A stretch of 27,846 bases of DNA from a virus: positions 1 to 27,846 of the IMG/VR virus record IMGVR_UViG_3300031658_000082; one strand, given 5' to 3'. A model generated the notes under the pieces. The model had not been told where the DNA came from. It did no database searches and saw only the letters and a program-made list of their open reading frames with translations. A program made the position numbers and the translations under genes. Positions 12 through 13,326 of the stretch are shown here, one piece after another (within the stretch, counting starts at the first letter, position 1; each line of letters starts with the position of its first letter).

Positions 12-407
12 ATGGAAGATTTAGATAAGAAGAAAAAGGCTGCCCGAACATTTGTGAATATGTTTGGGGGGTCTTTTGTTGCACTTAGTATTTCCGATAC
101 AGACTTCAAAATTTTTGACTCAAAAAAGAAACTAATAGCTTACGCTGAGGTTGTAACTGTAAACGATGTTTACGACAGCTCAACGGATTTAATTATAAAG
201 ATTCAAAGCCTACTAAGGTTATCAAACAAAAGATTAAACCCTGTGGTTATATGGGCTTTTAATGACGGAATAGTATACTCAAAGGTTACAAAGATAGAGG
301 GTTTAATAAAATGGGGAAGCCCTAACGGTAAACCATCTCTTCCTAGCACGATGGAATTAATAGCTGACTATAAGCAAAATAAAAACTTCAAGTATGAAAG
401 ATATTAA
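12..407 (+). CDS. Small PD-(D/E)XK nuclease-like protein, probably inactive
   Basis: This 131-aa basic protein begins with a lysine-rich stretch (residues 6-9). Residues 31-48 run from an Asp through a hydrophobic strand to 'AYAEVV', then a helix (55-72) and a strand ending 'VVIWAFNDGIVY' (78-89). This layout resembles small PD-(D/E)XK-fold proteins of phages, in which an Asp is followed about 10-20 residues later by E-x-K. Here E46 is present but the lysine position holds V48, so catalysis is doubtful. The fold assignment is inference from pattern memory. It is transcribed toward the late genes, so it belongs to a different transcription unit whose start lies outside the window. Its last 14 bases overlap the next small gene. 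It could equally be an unrelated conserved phage protein. Confidence 0.6.
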   Translation: MEDLDKKKKAARTFVNMFGGSFVALSISDTDFKIFDSKKKLIAYAEVVTVNDVYDSSTDLIIKIQSLLRLSNKRLNPVVIWAFNDGIVYSKVTKIEGLIKWGSPNGKPSLPSTMELIADYKQNKNFKYERY

Positions 408-492
408 AAAATTAAAAGGAAAGGTAGTAGAACTAGTTATTGTTGTATGTATAAACATAGCAATAATCTACTACCTATTATCTTTGATTTAG
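394..492 (+). CDS. 32-aa single-span membrane microprotein
   Basis: A short reading frame starts with ATG at 394, inside the end of the upstream 131-aa gene and in another frame, and ends with TAG at 490-492. The 32 residues have a basic N-terminus (KDIKKLKGK) followed by about 20 hydrophobic residues (VVELVIVVCINIAIIYYLL), as in a single-pass membrane protein with N-in topology by the positive-inside rule. The overlapping start suggests translational coupling to the upstream gene. Its stop codon shares two bases (490-491) with the stop of the convergent giant gene, so the two strands are packed with no spacer. Small phage membrane proteins can be holin-like, spanin-like or inhibitors of host membrane proteins, but nothing here decides between these. 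It was found by eye and its translation is unproven. Confidence 0.5.
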   Translation: MKDIKKLKGKVVELVIVVCINIAIIYYLLSLI

Positions 493-3400
493 TCTATATC
501 TATCTTTGATATTTTTTTCATTTCTTTCATTTCTTCGTAAACATCTGGAGCATATTTTTTTAGAGACTCCATAGACATTGATTTTCTTTTTCTTCTAGTT
601 TTCTTCTTTCCCTCTATAACGTATTCTGAATAATTTAACAACCTTAAAATATCTTTTTCTAAGCTTCCGTCTGTTCCTACGTTACTATAATTTTCAAACA
701 TTTTATTAAGAGTTGGAGCAGGTAGCCCTGTTATTGTGGCAGCCTCCATCCAAAAGTCCATAAGAGCTTCCTCTTTCTTTTTATTATCCTTTGTTTTATC
801 AAACTTAATTCTTTTTTCTACTAATCCAGAGAATATCTGTAGCATACCTAAAGACCTTGAAAGGCTTCCAGCCCAAGGCTTTCCTGTAACATAATCTGAA
901 AACATATTAAATACATCTCCTATAACAAATAAAGCATTTAGGTTTCCTAATATAGCTGCCCTCATTAAGTCTGTCTCATCTTCTTCTTCCCAGTCAGCAA
1001 GTAGTCCCGGAAATCCTGCCGCAACGTATTGAAATAGAACTGGCATAAAAACATGATAAGTTAAAAATGTTCTTATGTTTTCCTTTATAGTACCTTTACC
1101 TGCGTTCTTATCCCATTGACTTACCTTTCTAGACAAAGCCCTCACAGCTTGTATCTCTTTTCTTAGATACTGCTTCTGACTTGTCTGGAACATATTTAAA
1201 GATTTCCATATTGCTCCTTTTTTTTGGTAGTAATCCCTGTCCTGTAAGTCTGAGGATTGCTGTGTTCTTTTTGTGTCCTTCTCAAATTTTATTATCGCAT
1301 AATCGATAGCTTGTTGTTCTGTAGCCTTTGGGTTCTTCTTTTTAAACTCAGACTTATAGTAAGAGTAGTTAGGTAGACCTCCAAGCATAATAGCTCCGAT
1401 ATCACCTTTTTTTGTATTCCACATTAAAAAATTAACAGCCCACTGCTTAGCAGGATGAGGTATAAAACTCTTTGTATCTGTTTCATTGTACACCTCAATG
1501 GTATTTAGTATGCTATCGTACTTTCTGTCTTTAAGGTAAACAGAGTTGTCTCTCACCTCTTTCCATACCTTAGCTTGTTCCATTTTGTTTTTAGCAGCAT
1601 ACTTTACCCAGTTTCTGTATCCTATATCATTAGCATAAGTAAACAAAGAGGTTAACTGCTTTATCATTATAACAGGACTTAATGCTATTCTAGATGTTAT
1701 GAACACAGTATTCGCTGCATTGAAAAACTTATCACCTCCTCCTTCAGTCCTTCCTTTATTAGCTATTTTTTTTATAGAATCTGTGATAAGATTCATAACT
1801 TGATTACCGTGTATATCGGTAATTGCTGATTGTATATACTCGTTTTTAAATAACTTATCTATATCACGTATATTCTCTGCATAGGCAGCAAAGTATTCCA
1901 TTTCGTTTACATAAGACGCAAGTGCATCTGTAATATCCAAAGGAATAATAGCTTTATTATTTTTTGTTCTAGCCTTTGTCGATGCAGCTCCTACAGATGT
2001 GTTGTATACTCCATTTCCTGATAGCAAATCTAAAGGTTCTACATCTACTCCTTCTTTCTTTATCTTTCCTGCATAGAATTGATTCCAAGGCATATTAGCT
2101 CTATAAATTTTCTTATACACATCGTTGTAGTGCTCATAAACTTCAGGAAAAAATTCATTTACCTGCCAGTCTGCAAACTTTTTTAAATTAGAGTCTAGTT
2201 TATTCTCCATCTCTTTCATTATACGAGCGTAATCCTTTCCGTAAGTCGTCTCAAAAGATGGGTGGTTAGCAGGGTCTTTGTATTGGTTATACATATAAGC
2301 CATCTCATTAGGAGTCATTCTTATTTCGTTTCCAAAACCATCTACAATACCTGTATTTATTTCAACTCTGTTATTTCTTGATTTTTTACCCCATCTCTTT
2401 CCATATATATCTTGAAGCTTTGTTTTAATCATAGCCTCAACAATCATCTTTCTTTCCTTGAATTTTCTAGAAGATTCGTCTGTCTTTTCTGTGACTAACT
2501 CTTGACTTTTTCCTCCAAAAAGCTCTCCAGGTAGCTTGGATATTTTGTCCATCAATCCATCAAGTGCTTCTGCAGTACCAAACACACCATTATTTATAAA
2601 ATCAAATATTTTAGATATAGCAGTCCTTGCTCTGTTTTTTACTTTTTCAGCTTTAGCATCGCTTTTTCTTTTCCTTTTAGCTGTATCAAGAGTTTCTGAA
2701 GCGTCTTTAGCATCCATATCTACTCTCTCTCCTGTTATGTCTTCGTACAAGTCCGCCCTTTGGTCTCTGTATTTTTGAGCAGCCTCTTGAAGCTCTTGCT
2801 TTAATGCCGACCTACCTTTTGTTATTATATCTGATAGCTCGTTATTTACAAAATCTAAAGATGCGGTTTTATTCATATCCCTGTTATCCATAAGTAATGA
2901 GTTGTTATACTCTATTACTATCTGCATATCCACCATACTGTTTAGCTCTGCATCAGTAGGGTTTGGATTCTTTTGCATCTCGTTCATCTTAGCATTTAGC
3001 TTTTCATTTTCTGCCATTATATCTTCAGCAGTCATAGATTCGTTAGCTAAATTACTTTTTATAGACTCTATTCTTTCTTTAGTCTCTAAGTCTACCTTTA
3101 CACCCTTTAATCTTCCGCTTTCTACCTTATCATACTTTCCTCCAAGTATGTTAAAAATAGCTTTCTCTAAAGCTGCGTTATTCTTTTCAGTAACAAACTC
3201 GGTAACCTCTTGAAACAGGTTATCAATGTTGTCTTGAGTAGCCAAAGAAACCTTTTTCAATAAATCCAATACTTCTTTCTTAGTATAAATATACTTAGGA
3301 AGAGATTTTCTCATAAAGTTTCTAAGCTCTGTTATAACTGAACTAACATCTCTTGCTCCTTTCTTTCTCTGAGAGAGCATGAGTCTAGCTTTTCTTATTT

Positions 3401-6400
3401 TTTCAGACACATTTTTAGTTGGTCTAACACCGGCTCTACCCTCAACGGTAGTTGCCACAGATTGCTGTAGGTCACTAAGCATTTCTATTTGTTGACTTGA
3501 AGGGGATTTTTTTGTTTTTGTAACCTGAGTTCCTTTCTTCTTGCTTCCAACAGTATATGTGTCACCTTCAGCAATAAACTCTGGCTGTGCCTCCATAAAC
3601 TCTATGGTTTTATCTACAATTTCTTGTTCAGATATTTTGTTTTTTCTTTTCTTATTGTTTCTTACCTCTTTTGCTCTAAACTTTGATATCTTATCGAAAA
3701 GTGCCTGCCCTGCTTTTATACCACCTTTCATGTTTTTAAAGCTATCAGGTAGCTCTATAAAAAAGTCAGCCTTAGCTTTCATTTCTTCGTTGACTTCTTT
3801 TAGTGGAAACTTCCTTACTCTTGTCAGGTAATCTTTAATTGCAGCGTCTGTAAAGTTGTTTTCTCTAGCTTCATTAATGATGGTCTGCATTGTCTTATAA
3901 TCATTTGTAAATGTCATAAGCTGCAATGCATCCTCTAATTTCTTAACCTCTGAGTCTTTAAATAATTTTTTCTCAGACATTATATCTACAACTACGGCTT
4001 GAGTAAACTCATCAAGATTCATGTCCTGTATCTGTTCGTTAGTTAACCCTGATATCCCTGTAAGCTTTTTTACAAACTCAAATAAATCACTAAGCCAGTT
4101 TTTGAAATTTCTTTCTGCCGCTGCTGTAGCGAAAGATTCTCCCTTGTCACCTATAGCTGTAGCAAGAGCCTCTTCCAAGATGTACTGATTAATCTCTGCA
4201 TCAGTAGCTCCCTCTTTCTTCATTTTATCCGTAACCCTCTTGTAGTCTTTATTGTTTTTTACTCTATCAACATACTCTGAGTTTTTAATTAAATCAATAC
4301 CTTTTTCGTAAGCATTGTTTTTCATCTCCTTAGCTGTATTAAGCCATATATGACCAAACTCATGAACAGGTGTATTGAAATTTTCTAGTTCAGGGTTTAA
4401 GTATAGTTTTCCATTGTATACCGCACCATATATGGTTTGGTTCTTGGTGGATAATGCTTTTGCACTTAAGTTATCAAGCAAAGAGTTAAACTCTTCTTTA
4501 GTGGCAACAACCTCTACGGAAGGGAAGGACTTAGATAGTCTTTCTACAAACTTAGAGTAACTACTTTTTACATTTTTAGAAACTTTTTCAGCTCTTTTAG
4601 CTCCTTTCATAGCACTAGCGTAAGCACCTGCTCTAGCCTTTTTAGAAGAAGCTTGAGCTCCTTCCTTGTATTTTGAAACTGCTCCTATATTTTTTTCTAT
4701 GAATTTTTTAGTAGATATTTTATCTGATTTTTTTAAATTAAAAGATTCTTTACTTTTAAAATCTTTCCCAGTTTTTACTTGAAGCTCTAAATCTCTACTT
4801 CCGTCTTCATTTATTTTTTCTAAAACCTTAGCTTCTTTTCCTTCGTATTTTGTTGAGAATACATTTCTTGCTTTGATTATTCCTAATACTTTTTTCTCAA
4901 CTATCTCCTTGTAAGAAGGTAATACATCCCAAAATGGAACTGTCTCCTTAAGAACACCAACAACCCTACCTCTTATATATATAGGATAATTAGGATGGCT
5001 TTCCATTCCTTCTTCAGCTTGTTGTTCTCTAGATATTATAGCTTCATTTTTTGTTTTACTTGTAATCTTATTTCCTTTTTTATCTGTAACCTCTAGTACA
5101 ACAGTCATAGCTCCTAATGGCAAATCTCTTACGAGTTCATCAGATAGTTTATTTGATAAATTCTCTAAGTTTAAACCATTATCCTGCATAAACCCTAAAA
5201 CTCCTGATGTAGAATTTACAGTCTTTGATGGTATTATTTTTGAAAAGAAATTTATTTTTTGGTCAACATTAAAATCATTCATATTTTCAAATAACTCAGA
5301 AAGAGTTTTTGATTCATCTATTGCTTTTTTTTCTTTTTCAGATTTTTTAGTCTCACTTTCTTTTATAAGACCAAACAGTTCTTGTTGCTTTTCATTGCTT
5401 AAGCTATCTAAAATCTCTTTCCTAAAAGCTTTGTTAGAGTAGACAGCTTTTGGAGACATATTAAATACAACGCTATAGTCAGAATCTATAGCTCCATTTA
5501 CTATCGAACTTGCTGCTCCTTTCTTCATTGAAGCCCAAGCTACTCTTCCAAATAAGCTATCTATAAATGGGAACATAGGTCCTCCCATGTACTTTCCGTT
5601 GGCAACTAATTGGTCTGCCATAACTAGGTTTATCTTCTTTCCAACCAAGTCTTTTAGTTCCACAGCTCCTAGCTTAGTTTTTTTAAGCATTTCATGAAGT
5701 CTGCTGCCTTCTTTTATCTCAATAGGTATTGATACTGCTTGAGTCTCTTCTACGGTCTTAGACTCGCTATTTATCTTTGGCATTAATTTATTCATCAATG
5801 CCTTTGCTTTCTTTACTAAAGTTTTCTTGTTTGCTGCAGGTTCTTTTGATGCTAATTGAAATTGAACATCTCCATCTGTGTCTTCTTTAAAGAAAGCTTC
5901 TATGTCTCTTACTTCTTGCTCTGAAGATTTATCACTCTCAACTTCTGCTTCAACCTCACTAGTTTTTTGTGTTGCTGGTTTTAAAGCAGCTTCAGGTTTT
6001 GTTTTTGTTTCATTTGCTTGTTTTTTAGCTGTTTCGTATGCTTGATTGTAGTTTTCTATTCTTACACCATCTCCTGCCTTGTAGTCTCCGTTAGGGTCGT
6101 ATGCAAAGAATACATTATCTGGTCTGCTCTTTAATCCTGATTTTTCCCATCCTTCCGGAGCTATCTCTGGGTCAAAAGTCATACGAGCAACAGGTCTAAA
6201 TCCACTTTTTATGTATATATCTTCTAACGTAGTACCCTCTCCTGTTTCTTGGTTTATACCAAAAGCCTCTAGAAATTTACCTCCATTTTCTCTTGCTGCT
6301 TCAATCATTACCTTTGCAGCTCCTCTTTTGCCTGACTTTGGCTGCTTAAATATACCACCTATATATCCATCCTTGGTAACATACCCTCCTGATTTTCCAT

Positions 6401-9400
6401 CCGAAGTCATGAATATTTTACCTCCGTCAGCCTTTATCTTTCTAACTTCCTTTACTGTTAGTGGTGTATCCTGAAGTGCGTCATCAGTTCTCTGAGCCTT
6501 AGCTTCAGCCTGTGACGCAACAAACTCCTCTATCCTGTCTTCTCCAATTTCAATAACCTCATCTGTGGCATAAGCCTCAGCTTTATTGTTAGCTTCTGTT
6601 TGTACAGGTGCTTCTTCTGTGCTGGATTTTCTTGTAAAGAATCCCTTTGCCTTCTCCATTAAAGTTTTAGGTTTCTCTAATCTTTTTTTAGTCTCAGTAA
6701 TTTCACTATCTATAGCTTGCTCTAGAGTAACCTCACTCCCTTTTTTAATTGGCATTTTTAACTGCTCTGGGTTGTTTTCTAAAATCTCTGCTTTATTAGC
6801 CTCTAGTCTTTGTATTTTTTCAGCAGCATATTCTACATCAGTCTTTGAAGATATAGCCTTCATTTTTTCTGTAATCCCAGCTAATTCTTCTTTTTTTGAT
6901 ATAACTAAGTCTGGAGGTATACCCTCTATACTTTTTTCTATTGATTTTTTATCCTTAATTAAACCTATAGCCTCTTTTTTCTGGTCGTTAGTATAGTCTT
7001 TAGGTATCTCTTTCATCACAGACCCTAGCTCACGATAATCGTCTAACTGTTTCTGAGCCTCTGACTTTGTTATTTCCTTGTTAGCTATTTTACTTTTTAG
7101 AGAGGATACAAATAAAGAATTAAAGTTATCATCCTTTGATACCTTATCAAACATCTCAAAAATTCCGTTAGGTAAATCCATTCCCTTACCCGTGTTAAAA
7201 GCACTCACGACAGCTCCTGGAGCAGTCATAGCAAAACCACCTATAGCTTCCTGACCACCAGCTTCTAATACCTGAATACCACCCTCCACCAAACTTTCTG
7301 GTGTCTGAAACATAGCAACCTCACTATTTTTAATTGTGTTATATAGACCTTTTATAGTTATATCAGAAACTTCTTGCGAAGCACCAGTTAAAAATTCTCC
7401 TGCTGCTGCTTTACCAGTTTTCTTACCAAATTCTTTTACAGCTTCTAAGGCTGTTCTTTCCAGTGTTTGTTTGATTAGTAATGCATCTGCATTTTTAGGT
7501 ATTTTATTAAAAGCATCCAAAAGAACCTTGTTCATAAATCCTGTGTTTTTAAACATAGACTCAAAACCAACCTTTTCTAATGCTGCACCAATTATTGCTG
7601 CAGGTAATTTAACTGCTAACTTTTCTGCTTCAGTTAAATCTGCATACCCCTCCATTCCTCTAAACTCTTCTTCTATAGCTGAAAAAGTCATAGCCCCTTG
7701 AGCTATACCAACCCTCATAGATGCACTCATAACCCCAGCAGAACCAATTCCTAAAGCCATAGATGGTAAACTCTTTACCATACCTATTAAAGCTCCTCCT
7801 ATAAAAGAATCTTGTTCAAGGGCACTTATAGCTGCCTCCGTACTCCCAAACCACTCTAGGTCTTTTGTTATAGCAGCCTTACCCTCATACAGTGCGTCTC
7901 TAGCATCAGCAATACCTGTACCCTCAAACCCTGCGTAATACCCTGCAACACCTGCCACTGAAAGTCCAAAATCAGCAACACCTGTCCCTATATCTACAAC
8001 TCCCTTAATAAGACTCTGAGCTACAATAGATTTAACATCCCACTTCTCTTTTTCCCATTCTAAATATTCCCCTGTAAGTTTGTTTAAATCGGATTGAGTT
8101 TCTTTTATGCTTTTTTTCGATTCTTTTACTTTTGATAATAAACTTAAAAGCTCAATACTTTTTTCATTATACCCTTGGTCTGAAAAATTCATCTCTTTAA
8201 GTTCAGCAGCCAAGTTTACTGTTTTAGAGTAGTCGTCTTTAAACTGCTCAAGTTCATTGTTTAGACCATTCTGTCTTTTTAGTAAATCTTTTTCATCAAT
8301 AATTGTTTGAACCTTTTCATTTGATTTTTGATAAAATTTGTTTTCTTTTTCTAGTATTACTTCATTTTCAATCCTGTTATCCTCTAAAAATGATTTTAGA
8401 TTTTTAGCCTCACCCTTATCACTAAACCATGTATCTATATCTACATATACTTCCTTTCCGTTTTTAGAATATCCTTTTAAAGACTCTCCAACACTAGTTT
8501 CTTCAAAAGAAAATCCATATTGATTAAATAGCTTATTAAGTTGAGCTACAGTTGCCTCTTCTGATTTTTCGTCAATCATTTCTGGAGTTATTGTAATAAT
8601 AGCTCTCTCGAAAGGGTCTTTTGATGTTTTTTGTTTAAATTCTAGAGACATTTGACCTTCATAGCCTTCAGGAATTTTAGCTTTTAAAGCGTCAATTTCA
8701 AACTGCTTAGCTTCTCTCTCTTCATCGGTAACTGTGTAAATCTTTTTGTTTATTTCACTAATCAATTCCTGTTTTTTGGCAGCATCTTCAGGAAGTTCTA
8801 AAGTTTCTTTAAGATTGATGTCAATAGCAGCCTCTCTAGGTAAAAGATTTTCATCTAAATTATACTCTCCACCGTACTCTCTTAACTCTTGAACTTGCTC
8901 TCTAGTTACAGGTTTTTCTCCGTTTTGAATCCATTGAGGTGTATCTGATTTCCAAATAGCTATTCTGTCGTTTGAAAATTCATCTTCAGGGTTATATTCT
9001 GGAGCTTTAGGAAACATTATGTCCAAGTAATCCTTTTCATCTCTAGGGACAAACTCCTTTACGTTTGCTCTTAATAAATCGTCTTTATTTTTCCTTTCCG
9101 TCTCTAATTTACCCGTAGCTTCTATCTGCTTATCACGAGTATCAATTTGACCAGGAGTAAAACCTAAATTACTTTCATCAATGGTTTTCTGAATTTCCTC
9201 CGTATTAATTCCACCTTCAGGTAGATTGTATACTTCGGGTTGACTACTTACTGGAACAGAAGATTCCGCAGAGGTAGGTTCTTCCACCACTTGTTCTGTA
9301 GGTGAAACCGTACCTTCCCTTGGAGAAGTAACCTCTGAATTTTCTTTTTTTTTTACTTCAGAAAAAGTTGATTCAAATTCTTCCTTACTCGAAAACATAC

Positions 9401-9527
9401 CTTGAGGTATTACCGAATAAAGAACACCGACACCTTCTGATTCTATCAAATCCTTTAATTCTTTTTCGTTAGAGAACATTCCTTGAGGAATTGTTCTAAA
9501 TAATGCTTTTAAATCTTTTTCGTCCAT
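489..9527 (-). CDS. Giant multidomain virion (polyvalent/ejection-type) protein with zinc-peptidase motif
   Basis: This 3012-aa protein takes up about a third of the window. Visible parts in order: two IPQGMFS repeats (13-19, 40-46); a low-complexity Ser/Thr/Glu linker (about 60-105); charged helical stretches (230-500); glycine-rich membrane-prone segments (about 507-532, 575-604, 757-780); a GNAT-like domain (about 1021-1145, with 'YIKSGFRPVARMTFD' and 'APEGW'); a region with 'MADQ...GGPMFPF' (about 1290-1560) typical of large polyvalent phage proteins; a zincin with H1722-E-F-G-H1726 and a candidate third ligand at EE1785-1786; long helices (1800-2500); and a conserved C-terminus with hydrophobic stretches near 2600-2640 and 2820-2880. 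It follows the 574-aa gene by two bases and closes the late operon. By position and size it is likely co-injected or internal to the virion, like T7 gp16. Alternatives are a capsid cargo protein or a maturation protease. Confidence 0.8.
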   Translation of the reverse strand: MDEKDLKALFRTIPQGMFSNEKELKDLIESEGVGVLYSVIPQGMFSSKEEFESTFSEVKKKENSEVTSPREGTVSPTEQVVEEPTSAESSVPVSSQPEVYNLPEGGINTEEIQKTIDESNLGFTPGQIDTRDKQIEATGKLETERKNKDDLLRANVKEFVPRDEKDYLDIMFPKAPEYNPEDEFSNDRIAIWKSDTPQWIQNGEKPVTREQVQELREYGGEYNLDENLLPREAAIDINLKETLELPEDAAKKQELISEINKKIYTVTDEEREAKQFEIDALKAKIPEGYEGQMSLEFKQKTSKDPFERAIITITPEMIDEKSEEATVAQLNKLFNQYGFSFEETSVGESLKGYSKNGKEVYVDIDTWFSDKGEAKNLKSFLEDNRIENEVILEKENKFYQKSNEKVQTIIDEKDLLKRQNGLNNELEQFKDDYSKTVNLAAELKEMNFSDQGYNEKSIELLSLLSKVKESKKSIKETQSDLNKLTGEYLEWEKEKWDVKSIVAQSLIKGVVDIGTGVADFGLSVAGVAGYYAGFEGTGIADARDALYEGKAAITKDLEWFGSTEAAISALEQDSFIGGALIGMVKSLPSMALGIGSAGVMSASMRVGIAQGAMTFSAIEEEFRGMEGYADLTEAEKLAVKLPAAIIGAALEKVGFESMFKNTGFMNKVLLDAFNKIPKNADALLIKQTLERTALEAVKEFGKKTGKAAAGEFLTGASQEVSDITIKGLYNTIKNSEVAMFQTPESLVEGGIQVLEAGGQEAIGGFAMTAPGAVVSAFNTGKGMDLPNGIFEMFDKVSKDDNFNSLFVSSLKSKIANKEITKSEAQKQLDDYRELGSVMKEIPKDYTNDQKKEAIGLIKDKKSIEKSIEGIPPDLVISKKEELAGITEKMKAISSKTDVEYAAEKIQRLEANKAEILENNPEQLKMPIKKGSEVTLEQAIDSEITETKKRLEKPKTLMEKAKGFFTRKSSTEEAPVQTEANNKAEAYATDEVIEIGEDRIEEFVASQAEAKAQRTDDALQDTPLTVKEVRKIKADGGKIFMTSDGKSGGYVTKDGYIGGIFKQPKSGKRGAAKVMIEAARENGGKFLEAFGINQETGEGTTLEDIYIKSGFRPVARMTFDPEIAPEGWEKSGLKSRPDNVFFAYDPNGDYKAGDGVRIENYNQAYETAKKQANETKTKPEAALKPATQKTSEVEAEVESDKSSEQEVRDIEAFFKEDTDGDVQFQLASKEPAANKKTLVKKAKALMNKLMPKINSESKTVEETQAVSIPIEIKEGSRLHEMLKKTKLGAVELKDLVGKKINLVMADQLVANGKYMGGPMFPFIDSLFGRVAWASMKKGAASSIVNGAIDSDYSVVFNMSPKAVYSNKAFRKEILDSLSNEKQQELFGLIKESETKKSEKEKKAIDESKTLSELFENMNDFNVDQKINFFSKIIPSKTVNSTSGVLGFMQDNGLNLENLSNKLSDELVRDLPLGAMTVVLEVTDKKGNKITSKTKNEAIISREQQAEEGMESHPNYPIYIRGRVVGVLKETVPFWDVLPSYKEIVEKKVLGIIKARNVFSTKYEGKEAKVLEKINEDGSRDLELQVKTGKDFKSKESFNLKKSDKISTKKFIEKNIGAVSKYKEGAQASSKKARAGAYASAMKGAKRAEKVSKNVKSSYSKFVERLSKSFPSVEVVATKEEFNSLLDNLSAKALSTKNQTIYGAVYNGKLYLNPELENFNTPVHEFGHIWLNTAKEMKNNAYEKGIDLIKNSEYVDRVKNNKDYKRVTDKMKKEGATDAEINQYILEEALATAIGDKGESFATAAAERNFKNWLSDLFEFVKKLTGISGLTNEQIQDMNLDEFTQAVVVDIMSEKKLFKDSEVKKLEDALQLMTFTNDYKTMQTIINEARENNFTDAAIKDYLTRVRKFPLKEVNEEMKAKADFFIELPDSFKNMKGGIKAGQALFDKISKFRAKEVRNNKKRKNKISEQEIVDKTIEFMEAQPEFIAEGDTYTVGSKKKGTQVTKTKKSPSSQQIEMLSDLQQSVATTVEGRAGVRPTKNVSEKIRKARLMLSQRKKGARDVSSVITELRNFMRKSLPKYIYTKKEVLDLLKKVSLATQDNIDNLFQEVTEFVTEKNNAALEKAIFNILGGKYDKVESGRLKGVKVDLETKERIESIKSNLANESMTAEDIMAENEKLNAKMNEMQKNPNPTDAELNSMVDMQIVIEYNNSLLMDNRDMNKTASLDFVNNELSDIITKGRSALKQELQEAAQKYRDQRADLYEDITGERVDMDAKDASETLDTAKRKRKSDAKAEKVKNRARTAISKIFDFINNGVFGTAEALDGLMDKISKLPGELFGGKSQELVTEKTDESSRKFKERKMIVEAMIKTKLQDIYGKRWGKKSRNNRVEINTGIVDGFGNEIRMTPNEMAYMYNQYKDPANHPSFETTYGKDYARIMKEMENKLDSNLKKFADWQVNEFFPEVYEHYNDVYKKIYRANMPWNQFYAGKIKKEGVDVEPLDLLSGNGVYNTSVGAASTKARTKNNKAIIPLDITDALASYVNEMEYFAAYAENIRDIDKLFKNEYIQSAITDIHGNQVMNLITDSIKKIANKGRTEGGGDKFFNAANTVFITSRIALSPVIMIKQLTSLFTYANDIGYRNWVKYAAKNKMEQAKVWKEVRDNSVYLKDRKYDSILNTIEVYNETDTKSFIPHPAKQWAVNFLMWNTKKGDIGAIMLGGLPNYSYYKSEFKKKNPKATEQQAIDYAIIKFEKDTKRTQQSSDLQDRDYYQKKGAIWKSLNMFQTSQKQYLRKEIQAVRALSRKVSQWDKNAGKGTIKENIRTFLTYHVFMPVLFQYVAAGFPGLLADWEEEDETDLMRAAILGNLNALFVIGDVFNMFSDYVTGKPWAGSLSRSLGMLQIFSGLVEKRIKFDKTKDNKKKEEALMDFWMEAATITGLPAPTLNKMFENYSNVGTDGSLEKDILRLLNYSEYVIEGKKKTRRKRKSMSMESLKKYAPDVYEEMKEMKKISKIDID
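9390..9491 (-). repeat. Tandem IPQGMFS peptide repeat at the N-terminus of the giant protein
   Basis: Two copies of the heptapeptide IPQGMFS lie 27 residues apart (residues 13-19 and 40-46). Each is followed by a charged helix containing KE[LF] or EE[F]. The DNA copies differ at third positions, so the peptide is what is conserved, not a recent duplication. Confidence 0.75.
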
Positions 9528-9529
9528 AT

Positions 9530-11254
9530 TTAATTATTAAAGTAATTTGCATATTCTGCATAACTTGTTTTACCTGTAGATTTTTTCCATTCATTAAAGC
9601 TCATTTTCTGAGAGTCTTTAGTTCCGTATCTTTGAGCTCTTCTTTCTTTAGATTTTTTGTCTCCTTCTTCTTTTGAAAGTCTTTTTTCTGATACTTGAAA
9701 CACCACCTGGTCTTTATTAGCATAAGTTGAAGATATATCATATATGTCATACATATATTTTTCTGCGGTGCTTGCGTCTATATCATCTAAGTCAAAAGAC
9801 TTAACAAGCTCGTTTTTAGAATCCCTAACCTCCACCACATCACTACCTGGAATTGCAGTAGTTACTGAGAACCCTTCTAGATTTAACTGAGTATTTAATA
9901 CGTTTCTTAGATTTAGTGCTGTAGCATCTTCATCATCTAAAAATATATTTACACCTTCACTGATAGGTAGTATTTCATCTTTTAATATTCTCACATAAGC
10001 ATCCTCTACATTTTCTAACTCCGCTTCAGGGTCTTTGGAATTGTTTCCTCTGTTCCAATATCTCGAATCATAGTGAGCAGGCATAGCATTCCAATCTTTA
10101 TATGTTTTGATATCTTTTGTTTCCCCAACCTTAGTTCTAATAGCGTACTTCATGTACTGTCTAATTTCTTCCTTTTGTCTTGCTGCGTTAGGGTTTATAC
10201 TTTCATCAAACACAGGAATTGGAGTTCCTCCTGCATCCCTCTTCATTAGAATGAGGTTTGGATTCTTTTTCGCCTCCTCTTGGTTAAAGGTAAAACTAAC
10301 TTCTTTATCATCCAAATTATTTACATAGTCAGTCATTATCGATGTCATGTTGTAAGGATTTGATAGCTGACCGTCAATCCATGAATCTTCAGCCTCTATG
10401 TAGGCATTAAGAGCTCCAATAGCCTCCTTATCTAAATCATAATCTTCAGCCATTTCAGGAGAAATCTTATTCATTATCCTATTTCCTGTTTTATCATACT
10501 GAGCAGGTATCTTTGAAACAATAGTTAAAATCTCTCCTGCTTTTTTTCTAGTACCAGTAGTTCTTGTTACATCGGTCATTAAAGCTAAATTCGCAGTCCA
10601 TTGCTTAGTGTTCTTCTCCACGTCATACTTGTTGAACTTGCTTATTATGTTGTTCTTTAACGCACTAACTGGCACTAAATCGTTAGGGTCTTTTGATATC
10701 TCCATTAACCCAGTTTCTTCATTCAAAATCTTCTTTGCCGCCATAACCTTACCTGTTGCAGGGTCAACTATTAACTGAGTCTTGTTGAAGTTTCCAAATC
10801 CCTCCACGTTCTCCATAACCCAAGATTCTAATCTCTGAGAAGCATTGGCAGGGTCTTCGCTCTGAAGCCTTTCCATCTTTACAGCGTACTCCTTTTGGTA
10901 GTCATCCATCAATGAAAAAGCCTCCTCAGTTCCGTCTACTAGGTTCTGTTTGTTTTTGGTGTAGTCAGATACACTCATCTGACCACTCTTCAGCAATGTT
11001 GTAAGCATAGCCATCTGCTCCTGAGCTTCTCCAGCGTAGTTTAATCCCCACTCTCTGATTGACGTACTCTCTCCAGGAACTCCCTTAGCTAGTTCTTTCT
11101 GGTATTGCCTAGTAGCTTCGTCAATAGCAGCCTTCTTCTCGGTTCTTACTCTAGCCTCTTCCTTAAATACATTGCCTAAATTAGAGGTAGCCTCTGCCCA
11201 ATTTATTTGTGCTTGAGGGTCTCTTGGTTGGTAGTTAAAACTGGTATTTTCCAT
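9530..11254 (-). CDS. Probable internal virion (ejection) protein, T7 gp15-like position
   Basis: This 574-aa hydrophilic protein lacks a signal peptide or membrane span. Its N-terminus ('NYQPRDPQAQINWAEAT', residues 7-23) leads into a long helical region rich in Lys, Glu and Gln (25-160). The C-terminal 40 residues are charged and end with an aromatic stretch. I recognise no enzymatic motif. It lies between a small hydrophobic Gly/Ala/Gln-rich protein and the giant protein, two bases from the latter, so the three are surely co-expressed. This small-medium-giant triplet after a nozzle gene is how T7 places gp14, gp15 and gp16, the proteins ejected to build the DNA conduit. The role is inferred from order, size and helical character. 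It could also be a capsid cargo or tail-lumen protein. Confidence 0.7.
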   Translation of the reverse strand: MENTSFNYQPRDPQAQINWAEATSNLGNVFKEEARVRTEKKAAIDEATRQYQKELAKGVPGESTSIREWGLNYAGEAQEQMAMLTTLLKSGQMSVSDYTKNKQNLVDGTEEAFSLMDDYQKEYAVKMERLQSEDPANASQRLESWVMENVEGFGNFNKTQLIVDPATGKVMAAKKILNEETGLMEISKDPNDLVPVSALKNNIISKFNKYDVEKNTKQWTANLALMTDVTRTTGTRKKAGEILTIVSKIPAQYDKTGNRIMNKISPEMAEDYDLDKEAIGALNAYIEAEDSWIDGQLSNPYNMTSIMTDYVNNLDDKEVSFTFNQEEAKKNPNLILMKRDAGGTPIPVFDESINPNAARQKEEIRQYMKYAIRTKVGETKDIKTYKDWNAMPAHYDSRYWNRGNNSKDPEAELENVEDAYVRILKDEILPISEGVNIFLDDEDATALNLRNVLNTQLNLEGFSVTTAIPGSDVVEVRDSKNELVKSFDLDDIDASTAEKYMYDIYDISSTYANKDQVVFQVSEKRLSKEEGDKKSKERRAQRYGTKDSQKMSFNEWKKSTGKTSYAEYANYFNN

Positions 11255-11270
11255 AAATGTTTATCTAAAT

Positions 11271-12077
11271 TTATTGATAAGGAGAAAAAACTCCAATATT
11301 AAAAGGGTCGTTCTGTAGCATTTGATTGGGATTTTTTCTGTTAGGCATTCCTAGTGTACCATAAAATTGATTAGGATAACTTAATTGGTCTCTACCTATA
11401 TCATTATATGAATACCCTCCTGTTATCGGAGTAAAGTCTTGCCTATTTTCTAGTCCTTTACTTTCTGCTTTAGAAAGAGTAGGTCCAGACATCGTTCTTG
11501 CGTTTTTGTCTTTTTTATACAAACCAGGAAGTGCTATAGCTCCTTCTATAGTGTTTACAGCTCCCTGTATACCTTGTTGGATTGCTTGCTGTCTAGCCGC
11601 AGAAGCTTGAGCAGATTGCTGCTGAGCACCTGATATTTCACCCATATCTAACTGAGCGTTTATGTCTCTAAGCCTTGAATCTTCCTCGGCACTTGCTGCT
11701 TCTAGGTTGAACAAGTCTCTATTCATCTGGTCTCTTATGACTCCCTGAGCCTGCTGTTGAGCTGCTAATATTCTTCCCGTATTAGCTGCTGCACCTCTTT
11801 CAGAACCCTCAACCGAAGTCTGCTGTGCCTGTGCCCCTGCAGCCAACATAGCCTCCCTTTCTCTTTGGTAAGGTTCTTTATTGATAGCCAACTCATCCAT
11901 GTAATTTACCTCAAGTCTTTTTCTTGCGTCAGCCATATACTGAGCCGCCTTTGCGTCAGCCTTCTTCATTGCCTTCTTTTGAGAACTAGCCTGAGCGAAA
12001 GACATTCCTGTTCCTACTGCTGCGCTTGCTACACCTGCTATTGCTGCTACTGTTGCTACTGTTGTTGCTGCTGCCAT
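11271..12077 (-). CDS. Small membrane-active internal virion protein, T7 gp14-like position
   Basis: A 268-aa protein. Residues 1-32 are an Ala/Val/Gly/Thr-rich hydrophobic segment with small-residue spacing (AIAGVASAAVGTGMSFAQAS), like a glycine-zipper membrane helix. It continues into an amphipathic Ala/Gln/Arg-rich coiled-coil region (32-180) with many Gln runs, then a polar Asn/Tyr/Pro-rich tail (190-268). T7 gp14 and related ejection proteins have this plan: a short hydrophobic N-terminal part and a Gln/Ala-rich helix that enters the outer membrane. No lysine/arginine-flanked signal peptide or cleavage site is clear. It starts one base after the stop of the GNAT gene, within the ejection cassette. 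The A-rich spacer (taat) precedes the ATG. Function is inferred from composition and synteny. Confidence 0.72.
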   Translation of the reverse strand: MAAATTVATVAAIAGVASAAVGTGMSFAQASSQKKAMKKADAKAAQYMADARKRLEVNYMDELAINKEPYQREREAMLAAGAQAQQTSVEGSERGAAANTGRILAAQQQAQGVIRDQMNRDLFNLEAASAEEDSRLRDINAQLDMGEISGAQQQSAQASAARQQAIQQGIQGAVNTIEGAIALPGLYKKDKNARTMSGPTLSKAESKGLENRQDFTPITGGYSYNDIGRDQLSYPNQFYGTLGMPNRKNPNQMLQNDPFNIGVFSPYQ

Positions 12078-12078
12078 A

Positions 12079-12492
12079 TTATATTATTTTAATCATTTCT
12101 TTAGTATAAGAATCACCTTCTGTATACCCTAATTTCTTGTAAGTCTCAATAAGACCATTGTGCTTTATTAAAGCGTAAACAAATTTTGCTTGTAGTTTAT
12201 TTTCACAAATACTAGTTAGCTCTTCTATTAAAAAACTTATAGCTTCTTTTCTGTTAGGTTTTTTGTTATATGTTTTACTTGATATTATCCAATCAACCCA
12301 AGCCACTTTTGAATTTGTGCTGTACAAATATCCTGCACAAACTGGAGTATCTCCATCATAAACTATTAAGCCTCCAGTGCCATTCTCAGGAAGAAAATCT
12401 CTAGGTGGAGCTGTCCATCCCCAGTCTTCCCACCATTTTACGAGTATTTCATTGTAATCTTTTTCTTCTAATATTCTAATTTGAAATTTCAT
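12079..12492 (-). CDS. GNAT-fold acyltransferase-like virion assembly protein, T7 gp13-like position
   Basis: This 137-aa protein has the order of GNAT elements: 'IRILEEKDYNEIL' (5-17), a strand pair 'GGLIVYDGDTPVCAGYLY' (40-57), 'VAWVDWIIS' (63-71), the acyl-CoA loop region 'KKPNRKEAI' (77-85), and 'ETYKKLGY' near the end (116-123). The usual Q/R-x-x-G-x-G/A acyl-CoA loop is not seen, so activity is uncertain. The ATG at 12492 is preferred to an in-frame TTG at 12501 because a -7 promoter box overlaps that region and ATG is the usual start. It sits between the tail genes and the gp14-like gene, as T7 gp13 does. From memory, the gp13 family is itself placed among GNAT-like folds. A host- or virion-modifying acetyltransferase remains possible. 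Confidence 0.75.
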   Translation of the reverse strand: MKFQIRILEEKDYNEILVKWWEDWGWTAPPRDFLPENGTGGLIVYDGDTPVCAGYLYSTNSKVAWVDWIISSKTYNKKPNRKEAISFLIEELTSICENKLQAKFVYALIKHNGLIETYKKLGYTEGDSYTKEMIKII

Positions 12493-12498
12493 ATAATG

Positions 12499-12506
12499 CA
12501 AATATA
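12499..12506 (-). promoter_or_regulatory. Possible Bacteroidota -7 box before the GNAT gene
   Basis: The minus strand reads TATATTTG, matching TAnnTTTG, only six bases before the ATG at 12492. If used, transcription would begin at or next to the start codon and give a nearly leaderless mRNA. No convincing -33 TTG lies at the right distance, so chance in AT-rich DNA is a real alternative. Confidence 0.3.
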
Positions 12507-12513
12507 CAAAAAT

Positions 12514-13326
12514 TTATGGATAACTCTTCATTATCTCACTCTCAATAGCAAACAAACTAATCTTATCTGTTTCATTACTTGTCATATCAAATAAACAATA
12601 GTGTCCTAGAACCCCGTGAGATTCAGCGACAGAATCCTTTAACGACATAAAGTACTCTGTTGTGCTTGGTATAAGGGTAGTACCTGGAACTGTAGTGTCA
12701 ATAATAACCTGATTAATTCCTGCAGGTAAATCTATGTTTACAGCAGTTACTTTTCCTGCATACGCTGGTGTTCCTGGAACTGTTGGCGAAGCCCCTGTTA
12801 CGAAGTAAAAGAAATCTCCAACACTTAGTGTTCCTCCTATTGATATTAATGGAGATATTGAAAAGTCTATTACGGTAGCTAACGCAGTACCTGAAACATT
12901 TGATGAAGTACCGATACCATTCAATGAACGTAAAGAGTATTGGTCTAGTGTAGCAGGATTTCCTCCTGAGTTTCTAACGAAAGCATACCAAGAAGATTCC
13001 TTTTTTTCAAACCAAGGCGACTCAATAAAACCTGAGTTTTGTAAGTCTGTTGATAGAGTAACACCCCAAGACGTATCTCCCTCTAAGTTTATAGTTTTAA
13101 ATAACTTATTTTCTAAAGGAGATTTGTTAAACACACTCTTCATCGTAGTGGTGTATTGTATCCCGTAGAAGTTATTCCTAACAGGATTTACATTATGCCT
13201 GTAAAGGTTTCCACCCTTAAAAGTATAGAAGTAGTTATTCATACCAATCATCCAGTCTGGAGAAAAGGAATAAAATGAAGGAAATCCTTGTACGCTATCA
13301 GCGTATGTTAATGTGTAATTTGGCAT
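12514..13326 (-). CDS. Conserved tail/nozzle-associated structural protein
   Basis: A 270-aa protein recognised from flavophage and crAss-like structural modules by its N-terminal pattern 'SFYSFSPDWMIGMNNYFYTF' (17-36) followed by 'GGNLYRHN' (38-45), then 'SVFN..PLENKLFKTINLE' (64-82), and by its end 'KDSVAESHGVLGHYC' (230-244) and 'MKSYP' (266-270). A beta-rich module with 'VGDFFYF' and 'AGKVTAV' (about 150-225) is inserted between them. No enzyme motif is seen. It is in the same reading frame as the 59-aa gene just upstream, with one TAA and three codons between. An A-rich leader precedes the ATG. Its role is probably tail tip or nozzle decoration; the precise role is unknown. Confidence 0.72.
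   Translation of the reverse strand: MPNYTLTYADSVQGFPSFYSFSPDWMIGMNNYFYTFKGGNLYRHNVNPVRNNFYGIQYTTTMKSVFNKSPLENKLFKTINLEGDTSWGVTLSTDLQNSGFIESPWFEKKESSWYAFVRNSGGNPATLDQYSLRSLNGIGTSSNVSGTALATVIDFSISPLISIGGTLSVGDFFYFVTGASPTVPGTPAYAGKVTAVNIDLPAGINQVIIDTTVPGTTLIPSTTEYFMSLKDSVAESHGVLGHYCLFDMTSNETDKISLFAIESEIMKSYP

Follow-up and report, generated by a model that had tools for sequence, protein, structure and literature searches.

A giant cassette protein of a Bacteroidota-type podovirus that joins a predicted zinc peptidase to a GNAT-fold domain and may serve in DNA ejection

What does a phage do with a chain of 3012 residues, encoded as the final gene of its head-tail cassette, in which a zinc-peptidase motif and an acetyltransferase-like segment sit together? 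The window analyzed here covers the whole of a viral record of 27,846 bases that is probably part of a larger genome, and the giant protein occupies an uninterrupted, ATG-initiated frame at positions 489-9527. The size agrees with the original prediction, which left unsaid that the gene lies on the minus strand. Pfam and PHROG searches placed the terminase, portal, capsid, tail and muzzle-like proteins on the same strand. The terminase shares 77% identity with its counterpart in podovirus MW202828 (Manatee Spring) and 48% with those of the Flavobacterium elemo phages, with Cellulophaga and Tenacibaculum phages as further matches. Where genomes are named, the peptidase family of the giant occurs mostly in Bacteroidota. 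The virus is a podovirus related to the elemo phages and to the Pachyviridae/Pervagoviridae, with a Bacteroidota-type host.

Several other features of the window and its relatives were recorded along the way. The muzzle-like protein (12514-13326, minus strand) matches Pfam crAss_MUZ_C, the C-terminal domain of the crassvirus muzzle (E = 8e-17); judged from the terminase, whose relatives are elemo, Cellulophaga and Tenacibaculum phages, this occurrence of the domain lies outside the order Crassvirales. A 131-aa ORF convergent with the giant (12-407, plus strand) is conserved: its counterpart in MW202828 shares 41% identity, and 28 of 80 related loci contain it. CP070801.1 (L171, 31884-52525), titled as a Candidatus Aenigmatarchaeota archaeon chromosome (MAG), also encodes a protein closely related to the giant, with 56% identity in the peptidase domain and 38% over residues 1286-2974. 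The cassette neighbors seen in our window are absent from that stretch, and a misassembly or binning error is possible.

Direct searches of the giant against Pfam, PHROGs, NCBIfam and PDB sequences returned nothing usable except a weak match to PHROG 2563; tblastn was run with the protein as two halves. From its N-terminus, the giant comprises a variable and hydrophobic region (residues ~500-895, positions 6843-8030, minus strand like all features within the gene) found in about 11 relatives, a GNAT-fold domain (residues ~1003-1150, 6078-6521), a conserved middle domain of unknown function (residues ~1200-1635, 4623-5930) common to more than 40 relatives, a zincin-like metallopeptidase domain (residues 1640-1860, 3948-4610) and a C-terminal region (residues 2400-2990, 558-2330) with profile matches to the giants of Gundel_1 (E = 8e-202) and MW202828 (E = 3e-73). 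The order of GNAT, middle and peptidase domains recurs in four viral contigs (L041, L042, L044 and L045). The giants are only ~20-45% identical overall. A core spanning residues 1200-2100 is common to more than 40 sequences, while the N-terminal half differs among relatives. Other members of the family match the Pfam families ART-PolyVal, LPD23, DUF6782, Peptidase_M78, SprT-like and GNAT, and of these ART-PolyVal, LPD23, DUF6782 and the GNAT families sit in the variable N-terminal half. In this family, then, the peptidase core stays constant and the N-terminal half is swapped. Matches to SLT_beta (on the tail protein), Baculo_IE-1, DUF2239 and AICARFT fell below the cut-off and were taken as chance.

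The zinc-peptidase site was predicted from an HEFGH motif and a nearby pair of glutamates. HEFGH lies at exactly residues 1722-1726 (4350-4364) and EE at 1785-1786, in a protein that has only 9 histidines and for which composition alone predicts ~0.003 HExxH motifs. When the peptidase region served as the seed of a scan, 168 relatives came up and 80 of them were retained; HEFGH was itself part of one of the two search patterns, so its conservation among these loci proves little. E1786 (4170-4172) lay outside any search pattern and is invariant in 67/67 non-redundant homologues, thereby singling out the second glutamate of the pair as the predicted third zinc ligand. We also carried out an independent scan seeded only with the neighboring domain (residues 1195-1625), which yielded 46 loci. 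Of these, 41 extend far enough downstream, and every one contains both HExxH and the third-ligand motif (36 with HEFGH, five with HEFAH or HEYGH), so the motif is kept in relatives fetched without selection for it. In a model of residues 1195-1870 (676 residues, pLDDT 85), both histidines fall inside one predicted helix (model residues 524-541) and E1786 (model residue 592) inside a separate one (582-612), the arrangement of an HExxH helix followed by a helix with the glutamate ligand that characterizes zincin-like metallopeptidases. Neither of the two outcomes named beforehand as refuting the site, histidines placed apart in the predicted fold or HExxH lacking in relatives, was thus observed. 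The elemo-phage giant, whose motif reads HEIFH, aligns along the whole peptidase domain (E = 9e-8). A PDB fold search with the 676-residue model gave no significant match and none to a zincin, and profile searches of the peptidase and GNAT domains against PDB sequences gave no usable match. Assignment to the zincins consequently rests on the motif, the order of the helices and conservation, and on these grounds residues 1722-1726 (HEFGH) very probably form a true zinc site. The 3859-aa giant of MW202828 (L004, 741-12320, minus strand) has HEFGH twice, at residues 1615 and 2500.

A GNAT-like segment had been proposed at residues 1021-1145. The fold gained support over the somewhat wider span of ~1003-1150, while divergence of this copy weakens the idea that the domain is intact. 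Alignment rows from annotated phage records were left out of the structure modeling. In the AlphaFold2 model of residues 997-1172 (pLDDT 90.5), strands and helices follow one another as in a GNAT core, and the PDB fold matches listed are essentially all acetyltransferases (best E = 5.6e-4), with moderate TM-scores of ~0.3-0.5. PHROG 2563, listed as of unknown function, matches 35/35 members of this GNAT family and thereby gains a probable fold. Many phages have the same domain in their giants; it also stands alone as a protein of 191 aa and forms the C-terminal end of MuF-type minor capsid proteins. Among the 35 distinct carriers that reach 1500 aa or more, 29 also contain HExxH, against ~0.5 motifs expected in total, so that GNAT plus metallopeptidase is a recurrent architecture. 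In our giant, Tyr (Y1055) stands in place of the Asp that is near-invariant in the PDGDI motif, and there is no NG ahead of PD. Judged by eye, the G-x-A part of the acetyl-CoA loop [QR]xxGx[GA] is present as GAA at 1069-1071, without [QR], a loop that varies among family copies. The model thus points to a GNAT fold for residues ~1003-1150, whose acetyltransferase activity is uncertain because the copy is divergent. Limnohabitans phage DC33 (L007, 1732-11109, plus strand) encodes a giant of 3125 aa that combines LPD22 and ART-PolyVal with the same GNAT domain and HExxH; this phage is filed under Inoviridae despite a 39-kb genome, and the taxonomy line looks wrong.

Glycine-rich, membrane-prone segments had also been described. 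Such hydrophobic stretches do exist, including peaks in residues ~500-895 that rise weakly above shuffled sequence, but they hardly exceed chance: with Kyte-Doolittle values in 19-residue windows and a cut-off of 1.4, the giant has 6 windows against a mean of 2.5 and a maximum of 7 in shuffled sequence, which makes the argument for membrane segments weak.

The placement of the giant in a virion or ejection cassette was borne out. Three adjacent genes follow one another in a conserved order, coding for proteins of 268, 574 and 3012 aa, of which the giant is the largest. The 574-aa protein (9530-11254, minus strand) occupies a gp15-like position, and a homologue directly precedes the giant in 51/74 testable loci, with a gap within ~50 bases in all but three. 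The 268-aa protein (11271-12077, minus strand), in a gp14-like position, matches PHROG 13764, a virion structural protein, and is present in 50 of these 51 linked loci. In the Cellulophaga phage phi40:1, gp101 (1691 aa, same cassette slot) and the adjacent gp097-gp100, including gp100 in the slot of the 574-aa protein, are annotated from virion MS/MS proteomics, whereas the terminase and some neighbors are not. phi38:1 gp101 is 99.9% identical to phi40:1 gp101 and has neither HExxH nor GNAT; its N-terminal half matches the giants of Gundel_1 and the elemo phages, and the Gundel_1 giant in turn matches ours at the peptidase and C-terminal regions. phi40:1 gp101, linked to our giant only through Gundel_1, is the only relative with an MS/MS annotation, and none of the members that carry the peptidase was found to have MS evidence. 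By homology and position, the giant is probably located in the virion.

A small stand-alone protein of the same cassette (12079-12501, minus strand, probable start ATG at 12492) looks GNAT-like by eye, but neither Pfam nor PDB profile searches bore this out. It has homologues in the same cassette of MW202828 (45%), elemo (38%), Gundel_1 (35%) and phi38:1 (gp098, 22%), and its phi40:1 counterpart, gp098, is annotated from virion MS/MS. A link between this protein and the giant's GNAT domain was tested and not supported.

We propose, with confidence that is evenly balanced, that the giant is a DNA-ejection protein of a Bacteroidota podovirus with a swappable payload, and that its core zincin most likely cuts its own chain. 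In this scheme the giant would take the position of T7 gp16 or the N4 virion RNA polymerase, would probably be packaged in the virion together with its 574- and 268-aa partners, as homology suggests, and would be expelled with them ahead of the DNA, as expected of the polyvalent class. The N-terminal half would form the swappable payload region, holding the GNAT-fold domain in our giant, and the constant core would hold the zincin-like metallopeptidase, which by analogy with the class would most likely cut the giant's own chain, before packaging or after entry, and free the payload domains. The predicted zinc ligands, the GNAT fold, the domain order, the constant core, the linkage of the 268-aa, 574-aa and giant genes, the MS/MS annotation of phi40:1, the layout of N4 and the ejection role of the N4 and DEV giants all speak for this scheme, of which we infer the ejection, the self-processing and the enzymatic activities of both domains. 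Against it stand the lack of peptidase and GNAT in the MS/MS-annotated phi40:1 gp101, the missing zincin fold match and the fact that N4 virion RNA polymerase is packaged unprocessed despite its HExxH domain (PMC5512222).

Autoprocessing and host targeting were both proposed for polyvalent metallopeptidases by Iyer et al. (PMC5512222), and the latter makes room for a zincin that would cleave host proteins after injection, without processing the giant, alongside a GNAT domain that would, if active, modify host proteins. Since MuF capsid proteins devoid of a peptidase carry the GNAT domain too, its release needs no peptidase. However, the peptidase is fixed in the constant core while the payload varies, which suits processing of the chain better than a changing host target, and we regard a host-directed protease as rather improbable. 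Processing of P1 DdrB precedes packaging (PMC5512222), and the giant's gene sits in a structural cassette, as would suit a peptidase acting only in virion assembly, maturing the giant or neighboring structural proteins before packaging as proposed for DdrB; yet phi38:1 and phi40:1 assemble with the same cassette and a giant that lacks the peptidase, making such a role distinctly unlikely. Finally, HExxH and GNAT could both be structural relics without catalysis, given that our GNAT copy is divergent and that the HExxH domain of N4 virion RNA polymerase has no demonstrated activity (PMC12633501). Invariance of all predicted zinc ligands, among giants with so little overall identity, speaks against loss of function, which we consider very unlikely.

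Our reading places a predicted zinc protease, plus a GNAT-fold domain in some relatives, on the probable ejection protein of phages that include cultured members. Gundel_1, with a peptidase and a probable GNAT domain, and phi38:1/phi40:1, with neither, form a natural pair for testing whether polyvalent metallopeptidases process the injected chain. More speculatively, and with doubts that outweigh our confidence, Bacteroidota podoviruses may use one ejection-protein chassis as a general delivery vehicle, in which the zincin core frees a swappable payload (GNAT, ART or others) in each new host and the phi38:1 type represents the empty chassis.

Among known systems, the nearest relatives are the giants of Gundel_1 (gp74), MW202828, the elemo phages and phi38:1/phi40:1 (gp101), which occupy the same cassette slot and differ from one another in their N-terminal halves. 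HEFGH is kept in the Gundel_1 and MW202828 giants, and Gundel_1 gp74 has a weak Pfam GNAT match ahead of its peptidase. The MuF minor capsid proteins of Microbacterium phage Caron and Methanobrevibacter virus vir075 carry the same GNAT-fold domain at their C-terminus, with 34-38% identity, but are only ~525-550 aa long, lack HExxH and belong to unrelated cassettes.

Zincin-like metallopeptidases are the commonest domain of polyvalent proteins, with GNATs as a known partner (Iyer et al. 2017, PMC5512222). Like these, our giant is a large multidomain phage protein of a virion cassette, its relatives carry ART-PolyVal and LPD domains, and it joins predicted, unrelated biochemical activities in one chain encoded beside virion structural genes. 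Unlike them, it gave no match to any named polyvalent domain of Pfam, which has no model for either its peptidase or its GNAT family. Its sequence features make it a new example of the class described in 2017, with the class features that could be tested, and its delivery would be that of the class, whose members are presumably injected along with the phage DNA. The virion RNA polymerases of N4 and DEV (Schitoviridae), which are ejection proteins (PMC12633501, PMC10925440), share with the giant, whose own ejection we infer, a length of ~3,000-3,500 aa and a place adjoining two smaller ejection or structural genes. No RNA polymerase domain was found in the giant, nor any Pfam or PHROG match to T7 gp16 or N4 virion RNA polymerase. 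The strand-plus-motif segment of the N4 HExxH domain resembles that of our giant in a weak alignment of just 29 columns (probability 13%); because of this weak similarity, the giant is better said to work like these polymerases than to be a member of their family. In position and size they are its best counterpart.
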